From the NCBI GenBank assembly GCA_903885595.1, contig CAISJJ010000250.1, positions 1 to 64,000 on the forward strand: a stretch of DNA of 64,000 nucleotides, in the 5' to 3' direction. The position numbers were made by a program, and so were the translations under genes. Under the pieces are notes generated by a model. It had not been told where the DNA came from, did no database searches, and was given only the letters and a program-made list of their open reading frames with translations. Numbering within the stretch: position 1 is the stretch's first letter; each line of letters opens with the position of its first letter. The DNA is from an uncultured Bacteroidales bacterium (GTDB lineage: Bacteria; Bacteroidota; Bacteroidia; Bacteroidales; FEN-979). Shown here piece after piece: positions 819 to 63,480 of the stretch.

Positions 819-2021
819 ATGACAACACTCGCTAACAGAATTCAGTATCTGGCCGAAAGTGAAACCCTGGCCATGTCGCGCAAGAGCCGCGAACTCAAAG
901 CTGAAGGGCACGACGTAATTAACCTGAGTCTGGGGGAGCCCGATTTCTATACTCCCGACTATATTAAAAATGCAGCAAAGGAGGGTATTGACCAGAATTT
1001 TACCTTTTATTCGCCGGTGGCCGGATATGAAGATCTGCGCAAGGCAATTTGTACCAAACTGAAACGAGACAACAATCTTGATTACGACTGCAACCAAGTC
1101 GTTGTCTCTACCGGCGCCAAACAATCGATTGCCAATGTCATGCTCAGCCTCATTAATCCGGGAGATGAGGTTTTGGTTCCGGCGCCCTATTGGGTTTCCT
1201 ATAAAGAAATAATCAAGGTGGCCGAAGGCAAGGCGGTTTTTATCCCGGCCACGATCGAAAATAATTTCAAGGTCACCCCTCAGCAGCTGGAAGCTGCAAT
1301 AACGCCCAAAACAAAGTTGCTGATCTATAGCTCACCGTGCAATCCGACTGGTTCAGTTTACACCCGTGAAGAGCTGAAGGGCATTGCCGAGGTAATGGTT
1401 AAATACCCGGAGATTACCATTGTTGCCGACGAGATATATGAACATATCAATTTTGTCGGGAAGCATGAGAGTATCTGCCAGTTTGATTTTATTAAGGACC
1501 GTGTTGTACTTATCAATGGCGTTTCAAAGGGGTTCGCCATGACCGGATGGCGAATTGGTTTTATTGCTGCCCCGCTTGTTATTGCAAAAGCCTGTGACAA
1601 ACTCCAGGGCCAATTTACATCAGGGGCCTCATCCATTGCCCAGCGTGCAGCATTGAAGGCATTCATCACTGAGCCTTCCAGCACGCCCGACATGAATACC
1701 ATGCAACAGGCTTTTCGCGAACGCCGCGACCTGATGCTGCAATTATTATCCGAAATCCCAGGAATGAAATTAAATCACCCTGATGGTGCCTTTTACATTT
1801 TTCCTGATATTTCCTGGTATTTCGGTAAGACCGACGGAAAAACCACCATTAATAACGCGAATGATTTGTGCATGTACCTGCTCAATAAGGTTTTTGTTGC
1901 CCTGGTTCCCGGCGACGCGTTTGGCGACCCGAATTGCCTTCGCTTCTCCTATGCAACAAGCAAGGATAAACTCACCGAAGCGGTTAGAAGGATTAAGGGT
2001 GCGTTGGCTGAACTAAAATAG
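819..2021 (+). CDS. aspC: pyridoxal phosphate-dependent aminotransferase (aspartate aminotransferase type)
   Basis: 400 aa; SLGEPDFYTPD, SSPCNPTGSVY, VADEIYEHI, NGVSKGFAMTGWRIGF PLP-lysine motif (class I/II aminotransferase). Confidence 0.93.
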   Translation: MTTLANRIQYLAESETLAMSRKSRELKAEGHDVINLSLGEPDFYTPDYIKNAAKEGIDQNFTFYSPVAGYEDLRKAICTKLKRDNNLDYDCNQVVVSTGAKQSIANVMLSLINPGDEVLVPAPYWVSYKEIIKVAEGKAVFIPATIENNFKVTPQQLEAAITPKTKLLIYSSPCNPTGSVYTREELKGIAEVMVKYPEITIVADEIYEHINFVGKHESICQFDFIKDRVVLINGVSKGFAMTGWRIGFIAAPLVIAKACDKLQGQFTSGASSIAQRAALKAFITEPSSTPDMNTMQQAFRERRDLMLQLLSEIPGMKLNHPDGAFYIFPDISWYFGKTDGKTTINNANDLCMYLLNKVFVALVPGDAFGDPNCLRFSYATSKDKLTEAVRRIKGALAELK

Positions 2022-2050
2022 CGAGGTAGCGAAGTAGCGAGGTAGCGAAA
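2019..2050. repeat. TAGCGARG octamer array (4 units) overlapping the aspC stop codon
   Basis: TAGCGAGG TAGCGAAG TAGCGAGG TAGCGAAA; first TAG is the stop codon. Confidence 0.9.
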
Positions 2051-14471: not shown

Positions 14472-14543
14472 TAGCGAGGTAGCGAGGTAGCGAGGTAGCG
14501 AGGTAGCGAGGTAGCGAGGTAGCGAGGTAGCGAGGTAGCGAAA
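14472..14543. repeat. TAGCGAGG octamer tandem array (8 perfect units + TAGCGAAA)
   Basis: directly visible, (TAGCGAGG)x8 then TAGCGAAA, just beyond the purL 3' end. Confidence 0.97.
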
Positions 14544-14550
14544 TTATCTT

Positions 14551-17500
14551 CTATATTTTTGAATTTTGATCTTTGATCTTTGATTTTTCCTTTACCCATT
14601 CCCGTGCATTCACAAACGCTTCAATCCAGGGTGCTACTTCATCTGTTTTCCTGTCACCGGGATAGTATGCCCACTGCCAGGACAGCACTGAATCTTCCAG
14701 GTGCGGCATGATAGCCAGGTGACGCCCGTCGTTCGATGCGATACAAGCGGCATCGAATTGCGAACCGTTTGGGTTCCCGGGATATTCATGACAGCTGAAT
14801 TTCGCCGGAATATGATACTGATGCTCCGGTCCGGGGAAATTGAACTTACCCTCGCCATGGGCAACCCAGATCCCCAGTTTAGATCCCGCAAGTGAATGCA
14901 ACATCACTGAATGGTTTTCGACAACATCCAATCCAACAAAAGCGCATTCATATTTATGCGAATCATTCCATGACATCTTTGGGTGCTGGTTCATTTCAGC
15001 TTTTGGATGGTAAATTTCCGGATATATCAGACCCAATTCAACCAGCAACTGGCAACCGTTGCAAACCCCAAGGCTCAGGGTATCCTCTCGCCTGAAATAG
15101 TTTGTCAGGGCCTGGTTAGCTTTTTCATTAAAGAGAAATGCCCCTGCCCAGCCTTTGGCCGATCCGAGTACGTCAGAATTTGAAAACCCGCCAACAAAGG
15201 CAATCAGGTTTACATCTTCCAGATTTTCACGCCCGGAGATGAGATCGGTCATATGCACATCCTTCACATCAAATCCGGCCAGGTACAATGCCCAGGCCAT
15301 ATCGCGATCGCGGTTTACCCCTTTTTCCCTGATAATGGCCGCTCTGATTCCCGTTTTCGTACGCCGGCGTGAATCGATCGCATATTGTCCAAAAGTACCG
15401 GTAAATGATTTGGTAAACCTGAACTGTAATGGTTGCTGTTTGTAATGTGTAAACCGCTCAAGGGCAGGCTTTGCGCCTGATTGTCTGCGGTCAAGCAGGT
15501 AAGAAGTTCTGAACCAGGCATCACGCATTGAATCTATGTCGAATGAATGATGGTCGGAGCCATTGGTAATGGCAATGGTTCTTTCCTGGTTGATTGAACC
15601 AATCCTGACGAAATCAATCCTTGCCAGTTTCATGATATCCTGAACTGCTTCCACATCCGTGACCTGGATGACGATCCCCGGATTCTCACTGAAAAGCAAC
15701 CTGATGTTATCGCGTTCCTCCATCTGGGTCAGGTCAGCATCCATGCCAAAATCAACATTAGCAAATGTCATCTCCAGCAAGGTCGTGATCAGTCCTCCTG
15801 CAGAAATGTCGTGACCGGCCAGGATCAGGTTATCGCGGATCATCAGCTGCACGGCCTCAAAAGCCCTGATAAAATATCCTGAATCTTTTACCGTGGGAGC
15901 TTCATTCCCGATTGTATTGACCACCTGGGCAAAACTGCTTCCGCCCAGTTTCAGGGAATCCCTTGAAAAATTGATGTAAAGCAACTGGGAACCAGGTTCA
16001 TTGATCAGAACCGGGCTGATCACTTTCTTCACATCCGAAACTTCAGCAACCGCAGAAATGATAACGGTTCCGGGCGATAATACCATCGTTCCATCCGGGT
16101 ACTTCTGGGTCATTGACAATGAATCCTTGCCAGTCGGAATGTTGATCCCCAGTTCAATTGCAAAATCACTGACGGCCTTGACTGCGGCATAAAGCCGGGC
16201 ATCCTCACCCGGATTTCTACATGGCCACATCCAGTTTGCTGAGAGTGAAACGCCTTTCAGTCCATGGGTCAGTGGCGCCCAAACCAGGTTGGTAAGCGCT
16301 TCGGCAATCGAAAGACGCGATCCTGCTGCCGGATCGATCAAGGCTGCAACCGGTGCATGGCCAAGGGAAGTTGCGATTCCCCTGACGCCGGTATAATCGA
16401 GCGCCACAACCCCCAGGTTATTCAGTGGGAGTTGAACTGTTCCGCATGTCTGCTGCATTGCAATTTTTCCGGAAACAGCACGGTCAACCTTGTTGGTAAG
16501 CCAATCTTTGCAAGCCACTGATTCCATTTGTAAAACAGCTTCAAGATAGGTTACAAGCAGGTTTGGTTTATAGGGTAGTTGTGAATAGATTGTCGGATAG
16601 GACAAGTCCCGAAGGATCGTTTTGGGAGGTTTTCCAAAGAAATCCTCCAGTTTAAGATTAATGGGTTTGCTGTCGTTTTTCCGGTCGTGGAAAACAAGCA
16701 GTTGATCGGCCGTTGTTTTACCGGCTTCGTATAACGGCGCCCGCTCACGGAGTGCAATTCTTTCAAGCATGGAGAGGTCTTTCTCACCGATCACGAGCCC
16801 CATTCGCTCCTGTGACTCATTACTGATGATCTCCCGGGCTGATAAAGTTGGATCTCCCACAGGAAGTGCATCAATATGGATGGTCCCGCCGGTATTCTCC
16901 ACAAGTTCTGAAAGGGAATTGAGGTGTCCTCCTGCTCCATGGTCATGGATCGATACGATGGGATTGTGGTCCATTTCGGTCATGGCCCTGATGGCATTGA
17001 AGACCCGCTTCTGCATCTCGGGGTTCGATCGCTGCACGGCATTCAGTTCAATGGAATTGCCGTATTCGCCGGTTGCAACCGATGAAACAGCTCCTCCTCC
17101 CATGCCGATCCGGTAATTATCGCCACCGAGAACGATGATATGCTGCCCCCCTTCGGGGTTTTCCTTGAGGCTGTCTGCTTTCCGTGCAAACCCGATTCCG
17201 CCGGCCTGCATGATAACCTTATCAAATCCGAATGTCTTCCCGTTTTCTTCATGCTCAAAGGTCAGCAGCGATCCGCAGATCAGGGGTTGTCCGAATTTAT
17301 TGCCGAAGTCACTCGCGCCATTGGATGCCTTTATAAGGATCTCCTCAGGAGTCTTATATAGCCATGGTCGGGCTTCAATCGCTTTTTCCCATGAACGGCC
17401 ACCCTCAAGCCGGGGATAGGAGGTCATATACACAGCTGTTCCGGCCAGGGGAATGCTCCCCTTCCCGCCGGCCATCCGATCGCGGATCTCGCCTCCGGAG

Positions 17501-18348
17501 CCGGTAGCAGCGCCATTGAATGGTTCGACTGTGGTAGGAAAGTTATGGGTTTCAGCTTTCAGGGATATGACAGAACTGATATCCCGGATGGTGAAAAAAT
17601 CGGCTACATGCTGCCGTACGGGTGCAAATTGCTCTATTTCAGGTCCCAGGATAAATGCGACATTGTCTTTATAGGCAGATACGATGAAGTTTGGATGTTC
17701 CCTGGCGGTTTTTTTAATCATTGAAAAGAGCGATTCAGGCATTTCCTTCCCATCAATGATGAAAGTCCCGTTGAAAATTTTATGCCTGCAATGCTCTGAA
17801 TTAACCTGTGAAAACCCAAAGACCTCGCTATCGGTAAGTTTCCTGTTGAGCTTATGAGACAGGCCGATGAGGTATTGAATCTCTTCGTTGCTCAGCGCCA
17901 ATCCTTCCCTGGTATTGTAGGCGGCAATATCCTCAATAAACAGAACCGGATCCGGATTGTGCAGGATATGAAATATCTCCTGATTCAGTCCTTCATAAAC
18001 ATGTTGGAGCATGGGATCGAATTTCGGGACACGGGACACGGGACGCGGGAATGAAGAAATTTTACCTTCTTTTCCATCTTCACTCGTAAATCGTAAATCG
18101 TAAATCGTAAATTCTTCTATACGAAGTATTCCCGCAATTCCCATGTTCTGCGTGATCTCCACTGCATTGGTACTCCAGGGGGTGATCATTTCCCGCCGGG
18201 GGCCAATAAAGCTACCCTTCAAAACAGATTCGGCGATGCATTCTGCATCGCCGAACAGCCAGATTAATTTATTCAGGTCTTTTTCGCCAGGTTTTTCATG
18301 GCTTTCCACTGCATAAAAATGCTCGGAATTTTTAAAATATGTTATCAT
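14551..18348 (-). CDS. purL: phosphoribosylformylglycinamidine synthase (single-chain)
   Basis: 1265 aa; SEHCRHKIFNG, LKAETHNFPTTVEPFNGAATGSGGEIRD, DHGAGGHLNSLSELVE, C-terminal glutaminase GVCNGCQLLVELGL...PEIYHP. Confidence 0.95.
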   Translation of the reverse strand: MITYFKNSEHFYAVESHEKPGEKDLNKLIWLFGDAECIAESVLKGSFIGPRREMITPWSTNAVEITQNMGIAGILRIEEFTIYDLRFTSEDGKEGKISSFPRPVSRVPKFDPMLQHVYEGLNQEIFHILHNPDPVLFIEDIAAYNTREGLALSNEEIQYLIGLSHKLNRKLTDSEVFGFSQVNSEHCRHKIFNGTFIIDGKEMPESLFSMIKKTAREHPNFIVSAYKDNVAFILGPEIEQFAPVRQHVADFFTIRDISSVISLKAETHNFPTTVEPFNGAATGSGGEIRDRMAGGKGSIPLAGTAVYMTSYPRLEGGRSWEKAIEARPWLYKTPEEILIKASNGASDFGNKFGQPLICGSLLTFEHEENGKTFGFDKVIMQAGGIGFARKADSLKENPEGGQHIIVLGGDNYRIGMGGGAVSSVATGEYGNSIELNAVQRSNPEMQKRVFNAIRAMTEMDHNPIVSIHDHGAGGHLNSLSELVENTGGTIHIDALPVGDPTLSAREIISNESQERMGLVIGEKDLSMLERIALRERAPLYEAGKTTADQLLVFHDRKNDSKPINLKLEDFFGKPPKTILRDLSYPTIYSQLPYKPNLLVTYLEAVLQMESVACKDWLTNKVDRAVSGKIAMQQTCGTVQLPLNNLGVVALDYTGVRGIATSLGHAPVAALIDPAAGSRLSIAEALTNLVWAPLTHGLKGVSLSANWMWPCRNPGEDARLYAAVKAVSDFAIELGINIPTGKDSLSMTQKYPDGTMVLSPGTVIISAVAEVSDVKKVISPVLINEPGSQLLYINFSRDSLKLGGSSFAQVVNTIGNEAPTVKDSGYFIRAFEAVQLMIRDNLILAGHDISAGGLITTLLEMTFANVDFGMDADLTQMEERDNIRLLFSENPGIVIQVTDVEAVQDIMKLARIDFVRIGSINQERTIAITNGSDHHSFDIDSMRDAWFRTSYLLDRRQSGAKPALERFTHYKQQPLQFRFTKSFTGTFGQYAIDSRRRTKTGIRAAIIREKGVNRDRDMAWALYLAGFDVKDVHMTDLISGRENLEDVNLIAFVGGFSNSDVLGSAKGWAGAFLFNEKANQALTNYFRREDTLSLGVCNGCQLLVELGLIYPEIYHPKAEMNQHPKMSWNDSHKYECAFVGLDVVENHSVMLHSLAGSKLGIWVAHGEGKFNFPGPEHQYHIPAKFSCHEYPGNPNGSQFDAACIASNDGRHLAIMPHLEDSVLSWQWAYYPGDRKTDEVAPWIEAFVNAREWVKEKSKIKDQNSKI
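18025..18112. repeat. in-frame heptamer repeats inside purL: CGGGACA-type and CGTAAAT x4
   Basis: cgggacacgggacacgggacgcggg (18025 onward) and cgtaaatcgtaaatcgtaaatcgtaaat (18085-18112). Confidence 0.9.
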
Positions 18349-37042: not shown

Positions 37043-37102
37043 ATTTTTATTTCTAATTTTACAACCTGTAATGGAAGGTCATTGGTGTGAATAAATAAGT
37101 TG

Positions 37103-37134
37103 GCAAGTTGGCAAGTTGGTAAGTTGGTAATCGG
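37103..37134. repeat. GTTGGYAA octamer array (4 units) in the leader upstream of icd
   Basis: gttggcaa gttggcaa gttggtaa gttggtaa; boundaries approximate. Confidence 0.8.
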
Positions 37135-43961: not shown

Positions 43962-44025
43962 AAGCGAGGTAGCGAGGTAGCGAAATAGCGAGGTAGCGAA
44001 ATAGCGAAATAGCGAGGTAGTGAAA
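43962..44025. repeat. TAGCGARR octamer array (8 units, GG/AA variants)
   Basis: AAGCGAGG TAGCGAGG TAGCGAAA TAGCGAGG TAGCGAAA TAGCGAAA TAGCGAGG TAGTGAAA, ending 4 nt before the stop codon of the minus-strand gene at 44030. Confidence 0.95.
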
Positions 44026-59433: not shown

Positions 59434-60714
59434 TTATGCTAGCCGGTATTTCTGTATACGGAATATAAAAACCAGATAACAAACCACTGCAAAAACGCCA
59501 ATACCCGAAATCAGGAACATCGCCTGCAAGCCGATTGAATACCATAATAACCCGGCCATACTGCTTGCGATCAGGGTGCATATACTCGCAGCACTATTAT
59601 AAAAACCCAGGGCCGTTGCTGTGTCAGCTTTTGCTGCAAGATTCGAAAGCAGCGCTTTTGAAATTCCTTCAGTGCAGGCTGCATAAACTCCGTAAAAGAA
59701 AAACAAAATCCCGAAGAAAGCCAATGAACTCACAAATCCCATGCATGAATAAACAAAGGCAAACAGCACCAATCCGGCAATCAGCATGGTTTTTAACCCG
59801 ATTTTGTCGGCAAGGGCTCCTATCGGATAAGAAAACAGGGCATACACCAGATTATAAAAAATATAAACACCGATCATGGTTGTATCGGAAAAATGCTGCT
59901 CCTTTAAGGCCAGGAGTAAAAAGGCATCGGAACTGTTGAACAGGGTAAATACCAGTAGTCCGGCAATCAGGAAACGAAAAGATGGAGAAGCTACCTGCCA
60001 GTACCTGAGATAAGAAAAAAAACCAATGACAGGTGGCGGTGTGGTGAGGTGGTGAGGTGGCGAAATTTCCTCTTTGTAACCTTGTGACCCTTGAACCCTG
60101 TGGTCATGGCCCCGGGTAACGCTGTGACGCTGTGACGCTGTAACCTTATCCTTCAGCAGGAACGTAAGCCCGATGGCGATGAGGCCGGGAAAAAAGGCAA
60201 TAAAGAACATCCATTTGTACTGACCGGGATAAAAATACAAGAAAATCAAAGCCAGGATGGGACCAATTGATGCGCCAACAGTGTCCATCGACCGATGAAA
60301 GCCAAATACTTTTCCCTTGTGTTCCTTAGTGGTTTCGTCGCTGAGCATTGCATCGCGGGCACTCGTTCGGATCCCTTTACCAAAACGATCAAGCGTTCGT
60401 GCAAAAAATATCCAGAAAGGAAATGTAAACATGGCCATCATTGGCTTGGAAAGTGCACTTAAAGAATAGCCCGCCCTGATGAATGGCACGCGTTTTTGCC
60501 AGGAATCAGAAAGGTGGCCGAAATACCCTTTGCTCAAGCCCGCTGTAGCTTCGGCGAATCCCTCAAGAATTCCGATCAGAAGCACTGAAAACCCGATCGA
60601 TTTAAGGTAAACCGGCATGATTGGATAAAGCATCTCACTGGCGACGTCGGTAAATAAGCTCACAAAAGAGACTAACAGTACCGTGCGGGTGAGAATTTTA
60701 GGTTTATTGGACAT
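59434..60714 (-). CDS. MFS transporter
   Basis: 426 aa; 12-TM-like; GYFGHLSDSWQKRVPFIRAGYSLSALSKPMMA, RTLDRFGKGIRTSARDAMLSD, PIGALADKIGLKTML. Confidence 0.9.
   Translation of the reverse strand: MSNKPKILTRTVLLVSFVSLFTDVASEMLYPIMPVYLKSIGFSVLLIGILEGFAEATAGLSKGYFGHLSDSWQKRVPFIRAGYSLSALSKPMMAMFTFPFWIFFARTLDRFGKGIRTSARDAMLSDETTKEHKGKVFGFHRSMDTVGASIGPILALIFLYFYPGQYKWMFFIAFFPGLIAIGLTFLLKDKVTASQRHSVTRGHDHRVQGSQGYKEEISPPHHLTTPPPVIGFFSYLRYWQVASPSFRFLIAGLLVFTLFNSSDAFLLLALKEQHFSDTTMIGVYIFYNLVYALFSYPIGALADKIGLKTMLIAGLVLFAFVYSCMGFVSSLAFFGILFFFYGVYAACTEGISKALLSNLAAKADTATALGFYNSAASICTLIASSMAGLLWYSIGLQAMFLISGIGVFAVVCYLVFIFRIQKYRLA
60031..60147. repeat. three octamer-like repeat blocks inside the MFS coding sequence
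   Basis: gtggtgaggtggtgaggtggcgaaattt; ttgtaaccttgtgaccctt; gtaacgctgtgacgctgtgacgctgtaacc. Confidence 0.85.
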
Positions 60715-60730
60715 AATCAGTAATTCATAA

Positions 60731-60842
60731 ACTCAAAAATCAAAAATCAAAAATCAAAACCTCAATTCAAAAAGCAAAACGCAAAATCAAAAATCAAAAA
60801 TCAAAACCACAACTCAAAAATCAAAAGCACAATTCAAAAAGC
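60731..60842. repeat. degenerate (CAAAAAT)n heptamer array upstream of the MFS gene
   Basis: ctcaaaaatcaaaaatcaaaaatcaaaacc...gcaaaatcaaaaatcaaaaatcaaaacc... Confidence 0.9.
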
Positions 60843-61023
60843 AACGATTGTGCCTGGTATTAGGATTCGGATAAATAAAATCATAATAACTTTTTATATA
60901 TCAATATTTTAATTCGATATTCTCTTTCTTGTTTTCACTCATACTTCAACATTCGTTAATCAATATTCGATATTCTCATTTGTGATTCTTACTTCTAAAA
61001 TCTTCAGTTTTCCCGTTCCACAT

Positions 61024-63480
61024 TCAATTTTCAATTTTAAGATATTCCTTCGCAACCGCACTGAGTTTATTGTTCCAGTGATTACTTGCTGCTTTTGCAT
61101 ACGCAATGGTTTCATCATCGCTATACCGGAGTTTCTTAAGTAATGTGAAAGCATTCATCCGGGTTTCGAATTCAAATTTCGGACTGCAGTAACTGATGAG
61201 TTCTGTTAAAAATTCCTTATTCCCGCCACTTATACTTATTTCAAGCCATTTCATCCTTATATTTTTTCCTCGCCATCCTTCCATATCCCGGGTAATTTCC
61301 AAATATGCTTCTTTGCTTTTTGGAAAGGAGCCACATAAAGCGTCCAGTGCCAGTTCAACATTCAGATAACTCGAATCATACAACATCCCTTCTGTTGTAC
61401 TCTGCAAAAGATCAGGGACCGGATTCAGATTTTTAAGTGCCGCCTTGCGAACATTGGCATCCTTGTCGCGCAATGCCTGCCGGAAAAGCTCCATCACCTC
61501 CGGGGAATACTCCGCTGACAGTTGCCCGAGAATTTCCGTCTTGATCAGCCAGAATGATTCCGTATGAAATGCCTTTACCTGCAGATCCACTTTTTTATCA
61601 GCAGGGGCACTTCGCAATGCAAGCCACGCATCATACCGGTCAATCATATTTTCAGCTTTTAAAGCCTGGGCGGCTATTTGTTCAAAACTTCGCTCAAATG
61701 TTACCTTTTTCAGGATTTTCCGGTTGGGATCAAACAATACGAACTCGACCAGCTTCCGGCCAGGATTGGGGAGAATGACCTCGGTATATTGTTTCTCGAT
61801 CCGGGTTTTTATTTTGTCTGATGAGCCGTCGGTGTAGTGCACCTCAAACTGGATGGGCATTTGAAAAAGTCCGCTGAGTTCATTCACCACCTGGGTTTGC
61901 CATACTTTAAAACAGGTACTGTAATTTCCAAAAGAATCAATCACAACAGAATCCGATACTTTGTACTCAGGCTCTCCTCCTCTTAAAATCCATTGATCGA
62001 AAAACCAATTGTACGGTTTGCCGCTTGTTTCATAAACACAACGGATGAAATCGTTGGTTTCGGCATAGCCAAATCCATATTTTTCAAGATAATGCCTTAT
62101 CGCATCCATGAACTCCCGATCGCCCATTATATCCCTGAGCATATCAAGCACAAGCGAACCTTTCTGGTATATCCGCTGCACGCCTCCGCGGGTTCCTCCG
62201 ACAGGGAAACTGTTTTTCGCAGCAGCATCGAACGCCAGCAGCATCTCGTCGTTACGGAGGTTCTGGTAAAAGTCCTCGCCATAAACACTTTTTTCAAACA
62301 TTTTTGCATAATAGGTTCCAAAGCTCTCGGTAAGCCAGACATCCCTGTTTACAAAATGGGCCACATAATTCCCAAACCACTGATGGGCCAGCTCATGGGC
62401 ATTCACATTCACATAGTTGCGCTGCCACCAGGCACGGGGATCAATCTGCATAAAATCACCAAACACCGTGCTGGTCGTGGTTTCCATGGCTCCATACATG
62501 TAATCGATCACCGGGGCTTCACGGTAAACTGGGTATGGATAGGGAACCCCCATCTCCTTTTCGAAGAAATCGAACATCTGCCCCGTATATTTATAGGTTG
62601 TGGCAACGCGGTCGGGCATATCGGAATAGAACCAGTACTCAAGGGGCACCCCGCGGGAAGTTTCATCACTCAAATAATCATAATCGCCAATCACCAAAGC
62701 CGTGGAGAAAAAAGGGTGGTCTTTTTCCATGGCATAATGCCAGGTGCTGGTGCCATCGGCATTTGCCTCAATACCCATTCGCTCACCATTCGAGAACACC
62801 TTGTATTTATTATCAAAGGTGATAAACAAATCCATCGTGATCCGTCCCTCCATAAAAGGTATCCAGCCATGCGGCCGGTGAGCCCAGATTTGCCTTCGCT
62901 TACCGGTCTCTTCCGGTCTCCACCCGATAAAATAGATTGCGCCGGCGGGTGGCGCAGCAGTATATGAAATTGAGATCGTATCAAATGGTTCCACGTTGTG
63001 TGTTCCGGGTTCCGGATTTTGAGATTCTGAATCAGCAATCGCTGTTTCGGATTCGTCATTTTGTATTTCTGATCCGGCGTTACCTGATCCGCGCTTCTGT
63101 TTCATAACCGACCCGGGATAGACTATGAGGTTTATTCCCGATTGACGGAATTTTACATCCTTGCTATTGATTGTTACGGAAAATATCTGAAAATCAGGTG
63201 TGTAAAATACGACAGAGTCGGTTTGATACCGGTTTGGCACAATGGTGAATTCCGCAAGTCCGGTAATTTTATTCTGTTCGGGCTGAAATGAGACCCGGGC
63301 GGTAAGGTGCTTCAGGGTGACCGGCATATCGGGTGGTATCGAAGCTGGATCAGCATAATAGGTGACGGTTTTCTCCTGTGCAGTCACCCCGGTCGTAAAA
63401 GAGAAGAGTATCAGTATTGAAAGTATCAGGGTAACAGGGAAAATCAAATTACGTGATTCTCTTATAAATCTGTAGGACAT
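61024..63480 (-). CDS. M1 family metallopeptidase
   Basis: MYGAMETTTSTVFGD, VNAHELAHQWFGNYV...WLTESFGTYYA (HExxH-18-E), GSLVLDMLRDIMGD. Confidence 0.94.
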   Translation of the reverse strand: MSYRFIRESRNLIFPVTLILSILILFSFTTGVTAQEKTVTYYADPASIPPDMPVTLKHLTARVSFQPEQNKITGLAEFTIVPNRYQTDSVVFYTPDFQIFSVTINSKDVKFRQSGINLIVYPGSVMKQKRGSGNAGSEIQNDESETAIADSESQNPEPGTHNVEPFDTISISYTAAPPAGAIYFIGWRPEETGKRRQIWAHRPHGWIPFMEGRITMDLFITFDNKYKVFSNGERMGIEANADGTSTWHYAMEKDHPFFSTALVIGDYDYLSDETSRGVPLEYWFYSDMPDRVATTYKYTGQMFDFFEKEMGVPYPYPVYREAPVIDYMYGAMETTTSTVFGDFMQIDPRAWWQRNYVNVNAHELAHQWFGNYVAHFVNRDVWLTESFGTYYAKMFEKSVYGEDFYQNLRNDEMLLAFDAAAKNSFPVGGTRGGVQRIYQKGSLVLDMLRDIMGDREFMDAIRHYLEKYGFGYAETNDFIRCVYETSGKPYNWFFDQWILRGGEPEYKVSDSVVIDSFGNYSTCFKVWQTQVVNELSGLFQMPIQFEVHYTDGSSDKIKTRIEKQYTEVILPNPGRKLVEFVLFDPNRKILKKVTFERSFEQIAAQALKAENMIDRYDAWLALRSAPADKKVDLQVKAFHTESFWLIKTEILGQLSAEYSPEVMELFRQALRDKDANVRKAALKNLNPVPDLLQSTTEGMLYDSSYLNVELALDALCGSFPKSKEAYLEITRDMEGWRGKNIRMKWLEISISGGNKEFLTELISYCSPKFEFETRMNAFTLLKKLRYSDDETIAYAKAASNHWNNKLSAVAKEYLKIEN

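Follow-up and report, generated by a model that had tools for sequence, protein, structure and literature searches.

How does DNA of a kind that normally fills the gaps between genes come to lie inside the reading frame of a membrane transporter? This question is raised by a locus in the window, the 64,000-nucleotide contig stretch from an uncultured Bacteroidales bacterium analysed here, where an earlier note had described intergenic-type repeats in the central loop of a gene of the major facilitator superfamily (MFS). Related to it are three others. Is the segment really an insertion, where do its repeats come from, and does the same happen in other genes and other species?

The MFS gene and its loop

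The features concerned are the following:

59,434 to 60,714, minus strand: MFS transporter gene, 426 aa, intact, with a Pfam MFS_1 match and close matches in the window's genus and family
60,031 to 60,147, minus strand: period-8 insert in frame, at about aa 190-229, recognized by a lag-8 test, loop alignments and an AlphaFold2 model

The assignment of the gene rests on the Pfam profile (MFS_1, E 3.4e-41) and on a helix-bundle fold with a central loop. In the AlphaFold2 model of the protein (pLDDT 84, pTM 0.82), residues 193-226 fall below a pLDDT of 50 and lie between the helices 166-184 and 244-259, so that the insert is predicted to sit in a disordered linker between TM6 and TM7, which is the central-loop location that had been proposed. 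The peptide quoted in the earlier note was found at about aa 190-229 of the ORF.

Loop length sets the window apart from its distant kin. Nearly all of the distant Bacteroidota orthologues aligned have 41-42 aa at this position; it is 43-90 aa long in most members of the window's genus and family, although some species of the genus have a short loop. The window's loop counts 71 residues over the span aligned in the orthologues, and the period-8 blocks add ∼29 residues relative to the distant ones. From these alignments, 60,031-60,147 is best read as an in-frame insertion that the distant orthologues lack. A clean pair of an empty and a filled site was not found for this insert, and the nearest relative found has at most 80% protein identity. 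The window and nearly all relatives retain the reading frame; one match (L002) shows a TGA, its 1248 bases being one codon longer than its 419-aa ORF. There is no sign that the window's gene is a pseudogene, and the loops are of unequal length, so that neither of the two outcomes named in the earlier note as refuting its reading applies. With its longer loop, its intact frame and its predicted disorder, the locus agrees with the earlier picture of intergenic-type repeats carried in frame by a tolerant loop.

Might the arrays be an artefact of assembly or binning? The hotspot genomes are drafts, the named ones all being metagenome-assembled, and in G004 a contig break at the array divides the MFS gene between two contig ends. 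Set against this, arrays occur at the same gene positions in many separate assemblies, several of the contigs exceed 100 kb, and the frame is kept; we regard an artefact as scarcely credible.

Three period-8 blocks

Within the 117-nt insert, 63 positions match at lag 8, as compared with a mean of 28.7 and a maximum of 48 in shuffled sequence. None of 5000 shuffles reached 63, even if each is allowed its highest count among lags 4-12. The period-8 signal is carried by three blocks, which bears out the statement that further period-8 blocks follow in the segment:

about 60,114 to 60,147, minus strand: block 1, GTYACAGC octamers, GGTNACAR-like, identified by TRF (60,119-60,141) and from the sequence
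about 60,073 to 60,103, minus strand: block 2, degenerate GGTNACAR octamers (AGGGTTCAAGGGTCACAAGGTTACAAAG), identified from the sequence and family counts
60,042 to 60,065, plus strand: block 3, TRGYGARR family, its last unit ending in AA as is typical, identified by the sequence of TAGCGARR arrays

In coding order, block 1 reads GTTACAGC-GTCACAGC-GTCACAGC-GTTACC, block 2 AGGGTTCA-AGGGTCAC-AAGGTTAC-AAAG, and block 3, also given on the minus strand, TTTCGCCA-CCTCACCA-CCTCACCA. On the plus strand block 3 becomes TGGTGAGG-TGGTGAGG-TGGCGAAA followed by TTT, and is of the TRGYGARR type. The earlier note had likened the coding strand to the reverse complement of an array end. That likeness is real, because block 3 is a TRGYGARR block with an AA terminal unit and TGG variants of this unit are present in other arrays too. 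It applies to block 3 only: blocks 1 and 2 belong to a GGTNACAR-like family and not to TAGCGAGG.

Different octamers at one loop

The window is one case among several. When the MFS-loop DNA of the genus is pooled, the match frequency at lags 8/16/24 is 0.48/0.47/0.46, and about 0.26 at other lags. Even loops without an obvious array retain 0.34/0.34/0.33 at these lags, as decayed arrays would be expected to give. The units themselves vary among orthologues of the genus and family: GGTNACAR octamers occur at the loop in G017, G012 and G008, ATCANCAC octamers in G004 and G012, and CAGTTCAC octamers in G020 and G019, while G013 has GCGGACAR followed by ATCANCAC. Going by these sequences, a single MFS loop has been colonized by different octamer families in several species, a broader phenomenon than had been thought.

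In the four GGTNACAR-type loops, examined by eye, N is C or T in each unit whose TNA is in frame, unless the unit reads CCA there, so that no stop results. Outside those four loops, N is mostly A or G in GGTNACAR arrays (89 of 109 units).

Could the loop peptides be functional, for example as regulatory linkers under selection? That many species use the same sites would agree with this; however, the different families encode unrelated peptides at one MFS site (VTGLQGD, RTGGQAD, SPVHQFTS), and the loop is short in some species of the genus and predicted to be disordered, all of which makes a selected peptide function very doubtful.

The genomic pool

Arrays of 7- and 8-bp units were surveyed on contig stretches and by pattern counts. 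Those in the window include:

2,019 to 2,050, plus strand: TAGCGARR array directly 3' of a gene, its first TAG being the stop codon of the ORF that ends at 2,021
14,472 to 14,543, plus strand: TAGCGAGG array, intergenic, 9 units
37,097 to 37,130, plus strand: AAGTTGGC octamer array, intergenic
43,970 to 44,025, plus strand: TAGCGARR array, intergenic, 7 units
60,722 to 60,844, plus strand: AAAATCA heptamer array, intergenic, directly upstream of the MFS gene

Arrays of period 7 and 8 are much commoner in the contigs tested than arrays of other periods, multiples aside. They are mostly intergenic, and their families are scattered over both strands and restricted to particular lineages. With overlapping matches counted, G000 has 256 TAGCGARR triplets and its relatives have 0-82, and GGTNACAR is found 309 times in G008, 280 in G017, 106 in G003 and 82 in G018, with 0 in many others. 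Proteins tend to carry a family of which their own genome has many copies: for five families with a copy at a hotspot, the genomes with that copy are among the higher-ranking ones by pool abundance (permutation p about 5e-6, a value that is indicative only, since related species were taken as independent and the pool counts include the hotspot array).

These counts weigh on a simple local origin, in which each loop array would have grown by replication slippage from a chance seed in the gene, with no exchange between loci. Array lengths do differ by whole units between close genomes, and heptamer over-representation has been published together with a proposal of polymerase slippage (Mrazek 2007, as described in PMC4679880). 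Yet one genome may contain hundreds of copies of the same few families, which other genomes lack, and loop families tend to match the genome pool, where independent seeds would give unrelated units. We consider a purely local origin improbable.

The TAGCGARR arrays of G000 and its relatives are polar: AA ends the last unit in 34 of the 37 arrays counted, block 3 being one of them, as against about half of the first and middle units. A search for mobile-element boundaries at the 37 arrays revealed no shared flanks beyond A-rich ends and no target-site duplication.

Heptamers in PurL and arrays in other genes

A second gene of the window contains arrays in frame:

14,551 to 18,348, minus strand: purL, FGAM synthase, 1265 aa, matched by sequence to the PurL structures 1t3t and 6lym
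18,084 to 18,112, minus strand: ATTTACG heptamer array, in frame, in the PurL linker (from the sequence)
18,025 to 18,050, minus strand: CGTCCCG/TGTCCCG heptamer array, in frame, in the PurL linker (from the sequence)

Both arrays sit in the linker between IEEF and DPMLQH, where most species of the window's family have heptamer arrays, with ATTTACG, CGTCCCG, GTCACGC, CACTTGT, GTCAATT, AAATCCG and AAAGTAC as the families present. The linker gives 0.55/0.48/0.46 at lags 7/14/21 (0.546 at lag 7) and 0.239 at lag 8. The genomes of other families that were aligned have 38-39 aa here, without arrays.

Although unit sequences vary between species, the MFS loop has only octamers and the PurL linker only heptamers. 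Such constancy is not what random fresh insertion predicts; it suggests that sites may be rewritten in place by arrays of the same period.

A separate observation concerns palindromes resembling REP or GTAG elements, which are found at the heptamer site of the PurL linker in L269, L257, L264 and L267 (G021, G004, G002 and G022, respectively).

A weaker, third case adjoins the MFS gene:

62,986 to 63,120, minus strand: heptamer insert, possible and decayed, within ORF 61,024-63,480, an M1-type peptidase-like gene (from pooled lag 7)

The pooled value at lag 7 is 0.345, with most other lags at 0.22-0.27. Some relatives carry GTCACGC or CGTCCCA heptamers at this site, and the window has a longer, degenerate linker. 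Additional arrays were found in the middle of ORFs on sampled contigs, the gene names being putative and obtained by reading the translations. They concern a putative glycyl radical enzyme (G000:C7:30669-35222, L239) and its putative activase neighbour, both with arrays in frame (heptamers and octamers); a putative Mfd and a putative NifS-SelD fusion in G017; a putative DegT-type aminotransferase in G018; and a putative short-chain dehydrogenase in G013. The putative Mfd (G017:C18:203563-206967, L201) combines a heptamer array with a PLTPSPTREGESSPSLAGEGFRVG stretch that resembles a translated REP palindrome.

Turnover between close genomes

How do these arrays change? One genome pair, compared at a handful of sites, gives a first view. 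A 69-kb stretch without detected arrays is 96.3% identical between G006 and G010. Elsewhere, between flanks that are about 94-96% identical, arrays in gene gaps show length differences of 42 nt (6 heptamers) and 14 nt (2 heptamers) or have been wholly replaced. The two PurL arrays have equal length and few substitutions. This pattern fits slippage and replacement in gaps and selection for the frame in genes. The turnover tree is nearly a star, and gains are therefore not separable from losses.

The same pair is informative about phase variation, in which intragenic 7- or 8-bp arrays would switch a gene on and off by frameshift as units are gained or lost. A period that is not a multiple of 3 would suit such a switch, and a heptamer case is reported in Haemophilus HMW1A (PMC8262952). 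But in the MFS gene and in PurL the arrays have degenerate units and are interrupted, the targets include PurL and other conserved enzymes, nearly all MFS orthologues are in frame, and in this pair it is the gap arrays that vary and the PurL arrays that keep their length. A switching role seems highly improbable.

Proposed explanation

The reading that we favour, with a probability of roughly 70%, is that dispersed 7- and 8-bp arrays spread by slippage and by copying from one array to another, and that within proteins they persist in disordered loops able to tolerate them, provided that the frame remains intact. It builds on the periodicity, the extra in-frame sequence relative to distant orthologues, the recurrence at the same loops, the tendency to match the pool and the changes by whole units. 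The MFS insert would consist of 8-bp tandem arrays whose source is the pool of 7- and 8-bp families dispersed through the same genome. Slippage would add new units in whole-unit steps, and we infer that unit sequences move between arrays, most likely when a nascent strand in one array pairs with a second array, on which its extension continues. Arrays would accumulate where harm is small, that is, in gene gaps and disordered protein loops, and in proteins selection would retain only copies that stay in frame and are free of stops. The loop peptide itself is probably without a specific function and would decay by point mutation.

Several points stand against this explanation. The MFS insert has no clean empty counterpart, the single period at each of the two sites does not follow from random fresh insertion, the hotspot genomes are drafts, and the near-constant terminal AA unit of the TAGCGARR arrays (34/37) is not explained by plain slippage. 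Polar arrays with a near-fixed terminal unit could instead be the signature of a genome-wide process that actively writes and rewrites 7- and 8-bp arrays, with a fixed period per site and exchange of units between sites, a concerted evolution of micro-arrays possibly served by a dedicated enzyme. We see this as unlikely.

Relation to known repeats

Heptamer repeats have been described before, with TAACTGA in Beggiatoaceae, Cyanobacteria and five Bacteroidetes (PMC4679880) and GGGAATC/GGGGAYT in Xanthomonas and Nostoc (PMC4692102). Like them, the present arrays are dispersed, mainly intergenic, head-to-tail tandem repeats, lineage-specific, with few copies in ORFs and no known mobile element. 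The 7-bp unit of the heptamer type (STRR/LSSR) is found elsewhere in the genome, but the MFS arrays are of 8 bp. Unlike the known repeats, these arrays comprise both octamers and heptamers, with many families side by side and turnover from species to species, and they recur in frame at the same internal loops of conserved proteins; the ORF cases in PMC4679880 are few and mostly at protein ends or in hypothetical proteins. In the open-access papers searched, we found nothing closer than PMC4679880 on octamer or heptamer repeats in Bacteroidetes, and no description of octamer and heptamer arrays that repeatedly colonize the same internal loops of conserved proteins.

The parallel that the earlier note drew with Rickettsia palindromic elements holds as a concept. 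These elements of about 150 bp lie in frame in housekeeping proteins (Ogata 2000, as described in PMC10969869), and both cases have a tolerated repeat in frame in unrelated, conserved proteins. It does not extend to membership: in place of a ∼150-bp palindrome with defined ends, there are here 117 nt of period-8 units, without visible element ends, within a system of tandem 7/8-mers whose inspected TAGCGARR arrays showed no mobile-element boundaries. REP and GTAG-tagged palindromes (PMC3733652), of which lookalikes occur at the PurL linker in some relatives, are likewise single palindromic elements, and the arrays are 7/8-bp tandems.

Implications

If our reading holds, short non-triplet tandem repeats would act like selfish inserts in ordinary enzymes, repeatedly at the same permissive loops. 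The finding also calls for caution, as odd low-complexity loops in Bacteroidota proteins may be debris from the DNA level and not function. For those who wish to follow how repeats spread, homogenize and decay, the MFS loop and the PurL linker would provide a natural series.
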